Source: Actinospica acidithermotolerans
GTDB taxonomy: Bacteria > Actinomycetota > Actinomycetes > Streptomycetales > Catenulisporaceae
Length of the DNA: 64,000 bases
Direction of reading: 5' to 3'
Assembly (NCBI RefSeq): GCF_018139625.1
Contig: NZ_JAGSOH010000012.1
Span: 1-64,000, forward strand
In this document: in pieces, positions 18,115 to 46,273 of the stretch
How positions within the stretch are numbered: position 1 is the first letter of the stretch
Layout of the letters: each line of letters begins with the position of its first letter
Position numbers and translations under genes: made by a program
The notes under the pieces: generated by a model
What the model saw: only the letters and a program-made list of their open reading frames with translations
What the model was told of the DNA's origin: nothing
The model's database searches: none

Positions 18115-18794
18115 CCGAGACGACCGGAAGCGCTAGAAGCGCTACAAGCGCGCGTGAGGAGATCCTCCGGCGGGTCCGCAGAGCGCTGGCCGACGTGCCG
18201 CGCGGGGAGCGGAGCGAGGTCGACCGGGACTATCTGGCGGTGCACGGCGCGCGCTCCGCGGGCGAGAACATCGATCTGCTCGCCGAGAACCTCGCCGAAT
18301 ACCGGGCGCACGTCCATCGCAGCGGCGAGGCCGAGATCGCCGTCACCGTCGCACGGCTGCTGGCCGAGCGCGGGTCGAGGAGCGCCGCCGTGCCGGGCGG
18401 ACTGCCGGAGGATTGGCTCACGCGGGTCCCGCCGGAGGTCACGCTCATTCACGACAGCCCCGATCTGACCGCGCAGCGCCTCGATGCCGTGCACTCGGTC
18501 ATCAGCGGCTGCGCACTCGCCATCGCCGAGACCGGCACCATCGTCCTCGACGGCGGCCCCGGTCAAGGACGTAGGCTGCTCACCCTCGTGCCCGACCACC
18601 ACATCTGCGTCGTGCGCGTGCCGGAACAGATCGTCGGCTCCGTCCCACAGGCCTTCGCGGTCGGCGCCCTCGTGCCGACTCGTCCGCAGACCTGGATCGC
18701 GGGCCCGTCCGCGACCAGTGACATCGAACTCGATCGCGTCGAGGGCGTCCACGGCCCCCGCATCCTCGACGTCGTACTGCTCGGCGCCGCGTAG
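18111..18794 (+). CDS. lutC: LutC, LUD-domain subunit of L-lactate oxidation
   Basis: 227 residues from ATG 18111 (ATGA overlap with lutB). It is a single LUD domain: SAREEILRRVRRALAD at the N-terminus, AVHSVISGCALAIAETGTIVLDGGPGQGRRLLTLVPDHHICVV in the core and a C-terminal GPSATSDIELDRVEGVHGPRILDVVLL. The last 14 codons and the stop lie in the first unit of a 70-bp tandem repeat, so two further copies of this 3' end follow the gene. Confidence 0.93.
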   Translation: MTETTGSARSATSAREEILRRVRRALADVPRGERSEVDRDYLAVHGARSAGENIDLLAENLAEYRAHVHRSGEAEIAVTVARLLAERGSRSAAVPGGLPEDWLTRVPPEVTLIHDSPDLTAQRLDAVHSVISGCALAIAETGTIVLDGGPGQGRRLLTLVPDHHICVVRVPEQIVGSVPQAFAVGALVPTRPQTWIAGPSATSDIELDRVEGVHGPRILDVVLLGAA

Positions 18795-18967
18795 GCGAGT
18801 CCCGGCGCCGCGTAGCCCGTTCGGCCCCCGCATCCTCGACGTCGTACTGCCCGGCGCCGCATAGGCGGGTCTCGGCGCCGCGTAGCCCGTTCGGCCCCCG
18901 CACCCTCGACGTCGTACTGCTCGGCGCCGCGTAGGCGGGTCTCGGCGCCGCGTAGCCCGTTCGGCCC
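18752..18967 (+). repeat. 70-bp tandem repeat, three copies, duplicating the 3' end of lutC
   Basis: Units begin with CGGCCCCCGCA-type sequence at 18752, 18822 and 18892, each 70 bases, with a partial fourth start at 18962. The first unit covers the last 43 bases of lutC, including its TAG; the other two carry slightly diverged copies of the same coding end and stop. Within each unit a shorter GGCGCCGCGTAG motif occurs twice. The period is not a multiple of three, so copies fall in different frames and are not translated as part of LutC. Confidence 0.9.
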
Positions 18968-43791: not shown

Positions 43792-44514
43792 ATGGCCCAG
43801 CACCCGCACCCCCTGACCCCGCACCGCGCCCAGGTCGCCGAGGCGCCGTCGGGCGGCGCCGGGCCGGCGACGCCCGAGGTCTTCGCGGCGGCGGTCGGGG
43901 GCATCGGCGCGCTGCGGCCGCGGCCGGGCCTGGAGTTCGAGCCGCTGCCGGCGCCGCGTCGGCTCGCCACGCACAGCCACGCGGTCTCGGTCTCGGCGTC
44001 GGAGCAGCGCGAGGGCGGCGAGGTGGAGCTCGGTTCGGGCCGCTTCGTGCTGCTGTACGAGCCCGCGGGCCACGAGGAGTGGCTCGGCAGCTGGCGCTGC
44101 GTCACGCTGCTGGAGGCGGAGCTCGAGCCGGAGATCGCTGAGGACCCGCTGGTGGCCGACGTCGCCTGGTCCTGGCTGCGGGAGGCGCTGTCCGGCCTGA
44201 ACTACGCGGCGCTCGGCGGCACCGTCTCGCGCTGCGCGTCCTCGGGCTACGGCGAGCTCGCGGACCAGGGCACCAGCATGTCGGTCGAGCTGCGGGCGTC
44301 CTGGTCGCCGCTGCCGCCGCTGGACGCCTCCATCCCCGGCGGCCCGGCCGTGCAGCGCGCCGCGGCGGCCGCGGGCCGCGCCCGGTGGAGCGCGCAGGAG
44401 GCCGGCCCGGGCCTCGCCGCGCACGTCGAGGCCTGGTCGCAGTGCCTGGCGACGGCGGTCGGGATGCCCCCCGAGCTGGCCGGGATCGCCCGGCTGCCGC
44501 GCGTCGGCGGCTGA
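43792..44514 (+). CDS. DUF3000 family protein
   Basis: 240 residues from ATG 43792. It matches the actinobacterial DUF3000 pattern: FAAAVGGIGALRPRPGLEFEPLPAPRRLATHSHAVSVSA, LGSGRFVLLYEPAGHEEWLGSWRCVTLLEAELEPEIAEDPLVADVAWSWLREAL and YAALGGTVSRCASSGYGEL. The family sits divergent from hemE across Streptomyces-type genomes and has no assigned function. The protein has no signal or membrane segment. Confidence 0.88.
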   Translation: MAQHPHPLTPHRAQVAEAPSGGAGPATPEVFAAAVGGIGALRPRPGLEFEPLPAPRRLATHSHAVSVSASEQREGGEVELGSGRFVLLYEPAGHEEWLGSWRCVTLLEAELEPEIAEDPLVADVAWSWLREALSGLNYAALGGTVSRCASSGYGELADQGTSMSVELRASWSPLPPLDASIPGGPAVQRAAAAAGRARWSAQEAGPGLAAHVEAWSQCLATAVGMPPELAGIARLPRVGG

Positions 44515-44903: not shown

Positions 44904-45635
44904 GTGTCCGTCCTCGTCGACCATGCCGCGAGCATGCTGGCCTACCGGCCGGCCAAGCTGACCGCGATGGTAGTTGTGCACGATCCGCGCGTGCGCACCT
45001 CAGTGACCCGCCATCTGTGGGCACTCGGAGTGCGCGATGTGGTGGAGGCCTCCACCATCGCCGAGGCGCGAAGCCGGATGGCCACGGTTCGCGATATCGC
45101 GGTCGTGGACGTGCATCTGCCGGACGGCCCCGGCCTGGCGTTGCTGGCGGAGATGCGCACGGCCGGGTGGAACAGCGCGGTCGCCATCTCCACCGCCGAC
45201 GACACCAACGCGGTGCGCGCGGCGCTCGCCTCCGGGGTGCGCGGCTACGTGGTCACCGGCGCCCGGACGCTGCCGCAGGCCCGCCCGGGGCTGAACGGGA
45301 TGAACGGCGCGGGCCCGATGGGGCACGGCCACGGCCCGGCGCACCTGCGCGAGCGGCGGCTGGCCGCGATGTCCGGACAGGCCGGCACGATGGCCGCGCT
45401 GGCCCAGGGCTCGATCCCGAACACCATGAACGCCGGCGTGCGCGAGCTGTCCGCGCGCGAGATCGAGGTGCTGCGGCTGGTCGCCGACGGCCGCTCGAAC
45501 AAGGCCATCGGGCAGACGATGGGGCTGAGCGCGCTGACCGTGAAGAGCCATCTCGCTCGGATCGCCCGCAAGCTCGGCACCGGCGACCGCGCCGGCATGG
45601 TCGCCGTGGCCATGCGCGGCGGGATCATCGCCTGA
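44904..45635 (+). CDS. LuxR/NarL-type regulator with an atypical receiver domain
   Basis: 243 residues from GTG 44904, with AGGGAGG 5 bases upstream. The receiver domain (about 20-125) keeps the phospho-acceptor Asp in AVVDVHLPDGPG and the Thr of AISTADD. It has only one acidic residue at the metal pocket (VVVHDP), and the conserved Lys after GYVV is missing (TGA follows). A linker rich in Gly, Met and Ala precedes the GerE helix-turn-helix: LSAREIEVLRLVADGRSNKAIGQTMGLSALTVKSHLARIARKLGTGDRAGMVAVAMRGGII. No sensor kinase gene is near. The last 32 codons and the stop are the first unit of a 108-bp tandem array. Confidence 0.9.
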   Translation: MSVLVDHAASMLAYRPAKLTAMVVVHDPRVRTSVTRHLWALGVRDVVEASTIAEARSRMATVRDIAVVDVHLPDGPGLALLAEMRTAGWNSAVAISTADDTNAVRAALASGVRGYVVTGARTLPQARPGLNGMNGAGPMGHGHGPAHLRERRLAAMSGQAGTMAALAQGSIPNTMNAGVRELSAREIEVLRLVADGRSNKAIGQTMGLSALTVKSHLARIARKLGTGDRAGMVAVAMRGGIIA

Positions 45636-46077
45636 CCATCGCCCGCCGTGACGAGCCACCTCACCCGGGCCGCCCGCAAGCTCGGCACCGGCGACCGCGC
45701 CGGCATGGTCGCCGTGGCCATGCGCGGCGGGATCATCGCCTGACCATCGCCCGCCGTGACGAGCCACCTCACCCGGGCCGCCCGCAAGCTCGGCACCGGC
45801 GACCGCGCCGGCATGGTCGCCGTGGCCATGCGCGGCGGGATCATCGCCTGACCATCGCCCGCCGTGACGAGCCACCTCACCCGGGCCGCCCGCAAGCTCG
45901 GCACCGGCGACCGCGCCGGCATGGTCGCCGTGGCCATGCGCGGCGGGATCATCGCCTGACCATCGCCCGCCGTGACGAGCCACCTCACCCGGGCCGCCCG
46001 CAAGCTCGGCACCGGCGACCGCGCCGGCATGGTCGCCGTGGCCATGCGCGGCGGGATCATCGCCTGACCGTCGCCCG
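45538..46077 (+). repeat. 108-bp tandem array: the LuxR gene's 3' end plus four more copies, all in frame
   Basis: Anchored at GCCCGCAAGCTCGG, units recur at 45564, 45672, 45780, 45888 and 45996, exactly 108 bases apart. The first is the end of the regulator gene and differs from the others at its start; units 2-4 look identical and the fifth diverges only after its stop. 108 bases are 36 codons, so every copy reads in the gene's frame and ends in the same GGIIA and TGA. Each copy after the gene has its own GTG: 31 codons, from TSHLTRAARKLGTGD to the TGA. Reading through each stop would therefore add repeated half-HTH domains. Confidence 0.95.
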
Positions 46078-46273
46078 CGTCGCCCGCGGCACGTGGGCTT
46101 CCGGACAACCCGCGGCCTTCCCTGCGGGGCGTCCGCGTTCGTGTGACTAACCACGCCTGCGGGTGAACTCCCGCGCTCGCTGCCCGCCGGGGGCATGTCC
46201 CTCGTGCGGGCGGACGCGTTGGTCCGGTCGGTTGTCCGGTCGGCCCAGGTCCACGGCGTCGGGGAGTAGCACC

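Follow-up and report, generated by a model that had tools for sequence, protein, structure and literature searches.

Tandem copies of the 3' end of a NarL/FixJ-type response-regulator gene in Actinospica acidithermotolerans: a probable young non-coding minisatellite

The window analyzed here, a stretch of 64,000 nucleotides from Actinospica acidithermotolerans, contains a response-regulator gene of the NarL/FixJ type, the product of which combines a receiver domain (Response_reg, PF00072, 2.3e-07) with a GerE/LuxR-type helix-turn-helix domain (PF00196, 1.6e-16), both scoring above the Pfam cut-off. Matches to this protein were detected in 60 of the 60 relatives searched, with clear orthologs in most of them, and the identity reaches 98% in its two genus-mates and 89% in Actinocrinis. 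The response-regulator gene is preceded by a DUF3000 gene, within the coding sequence of which ARAGORN reports a tRNA-Arg (gcg) at 43885-43955 that is probably a false positive.

The end of the regulator gene is part of a tandem array, for which TRF gives the boundaries 45538-46078, a period of 108, 5.0 copies, 98% matches, 0 indels and a score of 1033. The array consists of five 108-bp units in register (45538-46077), namely the gene's own 3' end and four copies of it, each unit covering approximately the last 31 of the 243 codons together with the TGA and some 10 bp of the 3' UTR (Table 1). The period equals exactly 36 codons, so that all copies lie in the frame of the gene; every unit ends with GGIIA-TGA followed by a 10-bp spacer, and units 1-4 contain one 31-codon GTG ORF each (at 45648, 45756, 45864 and 45972), with the peptide of the array copies beginning MTSHLTRAARKLG. 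An array at the 3' end of the regulator with four further in-frame 108-bp copies had been claimed in the preliminary description and is borne out by both TRF and the ORF list, although the repeated part had been overstated there as the C-terminal half of the protein. By its head-to-tail, near-identical units (108 bp x 5.0, 98%), the array belongs with minisatellites or tandem repeats, which are defined by such units of roughly 10 to 100 bp or more. The 108-bp unit has no second locus in this genome.

Table 1. Coordinates of the response-regulator gene, the array units and associated features (positions in the window)
Feature	Coordinates	Strand	Remarks
NarL/FixJ-type (LuxR-HTH) response-regulator gene	44904..45635	+	243 aa, GTG start, good SD (GGGAGG), TGA stop
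Unit 0, gene copy of the repeat	45538..45645	+	CDS end with TGA and 10 bp of 3' UTR
Unit 1, inner chimeric copy	45646..45753	+	same sequence as units 2 and 3
Unit 2, inner chimeric copy	45754..45861	+	
Unit 3, inner chimeric copy	45862..45969	+	
Unit 4, last copy	45970..46077	+	apparently original G at position 100; continues into the old 3' flank
Hairpin region after the array	46070..46135	+	z -3.5 here; strong hairpins at the same place in relatives
Sibling array at the 3' end of a LUD-domain (LutC-like) gene, with TAG	18752..18967	+	70-bp unit x 3.1, same window

Comparison of the units reveals three types. Units 1-3 are identical to one another; unit 4 differs from them at a single site, 0-based position 100 in the spacer, where it has G instead of A, and continues into GTCGCCCGCGTCGCCCG, apparently the original downstream flank. 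Between unit 0 and units 1-3 there are six differences, which are confined to positions 6-24, and the other 83 bp are identical. Units 1-3 accordingly combine the 5' variant of unit 4 with the spacer base of unit 0 (A at position 100), and unequal exchange between unit 0, the gene copy, and unit 4, a single diverged copy, would be expected to yield exactly such hybrid inner units. The clustering of the six differences in 19 of the 108 bp (p ~4e-4), next to 83 identical base pairs, suggests that recombination homogenized the rest of the unit. The later copies had been described as sharing changes relative to the gene copy, which holds, with the qualification that these changes are confined to 19 bp; the accompanying proposal, amplification of one diverged copy, comes close, except that what was amplified, the inner unit, joins part of the diverged last copy to part of the gene copy.

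Comparison with 35 orthologs shows that the protein sequence of unit 0 is ancestral. All 35 orthologs have AAG and ATC (K and I) at the codons that read ACG and GCC (T and A) in the array, and most of them have CAC and GCC where the host gene has CAT and GCT. Two changes (CAT and GCT), both synonymous, can therefore be assigned to the gene branch, and four base changes in three codons to the array branch, namely AAG to ACG and ATC to GCC, in codons that are invariant in 35 of the 35 orthologs, and GCC to ACC. All four array-branch changes are nonsynonymous and, judged from so small a number of substitutions, this replacement-only pattern appears to resemble drift free of constraint. Another LuxR gene as the ectopic donor of the diverged 5' part was considered and rejected, given that a genome-wide search for a 25-bp pattern, with as many as 3 mismatches allowed, matched the four array copies only.

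All 13 other family genomes, one per species, lack the array, and the 11 of them in which the orthologous gene was found contain just one copy of the 108-bp unit. The sequence that follows the array can be aligned with the downstream flanks of two related genomes and has the block CGGGTGAACT in common with them, and a strong hairpin is located between the stop codon and this block in all three genomes, with z values of -8.2 and -5.9 in the two relatives. The hairpin region that follows the array is probably the terminator of the host gene. Since the positions of the hairpin and of block CGGGTGAACT match those in the relatives, the array can be placed in the 3' UTR, ahead of the probable terminator, and makes this UTR 432 nt longer.

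These observations are best accommodated by a simple history. A segment from the last codons of the gene to about 10 bp past the stop would have been duplicated in tandem into the 3' UTR, ahead of the terminator, a change that may have been near-neutral and tolerated because the intact gene is the first copy. The second copy would then have drifted free of the coding constraint, after which unequal exchange or slippage between the two copies would have produced inner units with the 5' part of the last copy and the 3' part of the gene copy, and recombination among the repeats would have homogenized the core of the unit. The order of these events, their neutrality and the exact mechanism of recombination are what we infer from the pattern. 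We consider it highly probable that the array is a young non-coding minisatellite that arose by tandem duplication in the 3' UTR and was later amplified and homogenized by repeat recombination.

To place this array in context, we surveyed TRF arrays in 1.57 Mb, about a fifth, of this 7.9 Mb genome (the two genus-mates have genomes of 9.6 and 9.9 Mb). Arrays with periods of 24-127 bp cross the 3' ends of called genes in 13 cases (about 13-17 with manual inspection), compared with 33 arrays inside genes and 3 crossing 5' ends. The period is divisible by 3 in 32 of the 33 in-gene arrays vs only 4 of the 13 3'-end arrays (Fisher p 6e-6), and the 70-bp period of the sibling array in the same window is not divisible by 3; frame constraint is absent from the sibling arrays at gene ends. 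In view of this contrast, the length of 36 codons needs no cause beyond a one-in-three chance, and the in-frame period of the 108-bp unit appears to be fortuitous. The array thus looks like a tandem duplication of an ordinary sort and belongs to a class of minisatellites found at gene ends in this genome.

Further examples of this class include arrays of 112 bp x 3.9 at a glyoxalase-like gene and of 127 bp x 3.8 at a gene of the endonuclease/exonuclease/phosphatase family. At L140:9658-11667, a single ORF with the unusual pairing of sigma-70 region 2 and CAP domains is followed by an array of its own 3' end (93 bp x 5.0, 99% identical). At L116:7453-7717, the last 37 bp, including the TGA, of a sigma-factor gene with regions 2, 3 and 4 are repeated within a 53 bp x 5.0 array with 85% matches, and a 122 bp x 4.0 array located between two minus-strand genes (L140:6205-6694; contig C88:26205-26694) includes the 3' end of one gene and reaches the start of the other. 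In the two genus-mates, the counterparts of the 93-, 127- and 70-bp arrays are not arrayed and the 112-bp unit has no match; likewise, a 47 bp x 4.4 array of another genome in the comparison, G002, is absent from the other two genomes. The sibling arrays arise independently, after the species split, and are lineage-specific where checked.

The only part of this picture that is left unexplained is a mild surplus of 3'-end over 5'-end arrays (13:3, p 0.02; 17:3 with the hand-assigned cases, p 0.003), which could mean a specific process or a benefit. The ratio is rough, given that the simple GC-frame caller used in the survey over-extends 5' ends, and the surplus rests mainly on a fifth of one genome; the corresponding counts are 2:0 in G002 (0.8 Mb) and mixed in G003 (0.4 Mb). 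The broader proposal that there is a real genome-wide excess of arrays that start in the last codons and pass the stop, the 108-bp array being one example, and that it stems from a process specific to 3' ends (such as termination-linked DNA breakage or replication-transcription conflict) or from retention of the arrays as insulators of transcription units, appears to us rather unlikely.

A role at the DNA or RNA level, in which the array alters termination, the stability of the 3' UTR or the expression of the downstream glycosyltransferase/methyltransferase gene, possibly by VNTR-type tuning through copy number, seems improbable, even though the array follows the stop codon and precedes the presumed terminator hairpin, so that the 3' UTR is 432 nt longer, and gene-end arrays are frequent in this genome. 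A precedent exists in M. tuberculosis, where the length of the VNTR upstream of fpg1 has been reported to correlate with expression (PMC2734929). However, the unit RNA folds no better than shuffled sequences (z ~0), on which ground RNA structure was rejected as the selected feature, and matches no Rfam family above chance; furthermore, no promoter or terminator consensus was found in the array region, and the sibling arrays appear by eye to have no sequence in common, which gives no indication of a shared binding site. The array may affect termination or the downstream gene, but nothing requires a function for it.

The copies had also been suggested to yield competitor peptides, translated from their own GTG or by readthrough; such peptides, for which reinitiation after the TGA is a further conceivable route, would hinder DNA binding or dimerization of the regulator. 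The copies are in frame with one another as well as with the gene, and each has a 31-codon GTG ORF, as such a scheme calls for, and a TGA followed by C, the stop context found in the array, is leaky. The intact frame and stop in every copy likewise fit a coding function, but the copies are too alike to be informative in this respect. The signals that mark genes for small peptides were not found at the GTGs of the copies, the upstream sequence of which (ATCGCCCGCC) has no purine-rich SD, in contrast to that of the host gene; nor is there a coupled start, the gap from TGA to GTG being 12 nt, and translational coupling can drop substantially when the distance rises by less than 20 nt (PMC12548453). 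The array branch carries replacement changes only, with the loss of the K and I that are invariant in the orthologs, which, few as these changes are, points away from purifying selection on the peptide, and the array peptide has no match in Pfam or NCBIfam, although the 31-residue version from the gene has no Pfam match either. Taken together with the disregard for frame in the sibling 3'-end arrays and the lack of conservation of the array in any of the 13 other family genomes, these findings fail to support competitor peptides, which we regard as very improbable. The other suggestion made at the same time, a recent slippage product, is upheld in the form of duplication followed by repeat recombination, by the absence of the array from the 13 genomes, the chimeric inner units and the many gene-end arrays of arbitrary period.

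An assembly artefact, such that the real array is shorter, longer or absent, is also very improbable: the assembly is a 422-contig draft, but three unit types distinguished by substitutions, along with unique left and right junctions, would be hard to obtain from misassembled single-copy sequence, and a similar clean array, the 47 bp x 4.4 one, is present in the single-contig genome G002. The three unit types support the existence of a tandem array, and it is the copy number of five that is uncertain. The A. acidithermotolerans genome was assembled with SPAdes from 2x250-bp MiSeq reads (PMC9308616), which probably applies to this assembly, and because the sequence that stays identical from unit 1 to within unit 4 spans about 400 bp, more than a 250-bp read, no single read establishes the number of copies.

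With bacterial minisatellites and VNTRs, the young array shares head-to-tail units, near-identical inner and variant end copies, lineage specificity and a location in or near an intergenic region; it differs in that its unit starts inside a coding sequence and includes the stop codon. MIRU resemble it as 40-100 bp repeats between genes that contain short ORFs and are known also beside a two-component regulator operon. However, MIRU are a dispersed family, whereas the 108-bp unit is confined to one locus and derives from the adjacent gene, and the translation of MIRU is coupled by a stop/start overlap of -4 nt (PMC12548453), in contrast to the gap found here. Our literature search found no dedicated description of tandem arrays at gene 3' ends in bacteria, the nearest case being the repeats of Borg elements (PMC9879509). 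The Borg repeats within ORFs all have lengths divisible by three, compared with 14-38% of the intergenic ones, and repeat regions starting within the terminal part of an ORF are on record. The frame is thus kept in genes and not outside them, and regions start in ORF ends, as in A. acidithermotolerans; yet the Borg repeats are perfect, A-enriched and carried by archaeal extrachromosomal elements, whereas the arrays described here are GC-rich, partly diverged and located on bacterial contigs.

An in-frame, stop-ending array is to be expected in about 1 in 3 cases by chance, which calls for caution in reading function into such arrangements, and on its own this array, an ordinary young repeat, matters little. 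The 3'-over-5' pattern would give a testable view of how tandem duplications are generated or tolerated in the 3' UTRs of high-GC actinomycetes.
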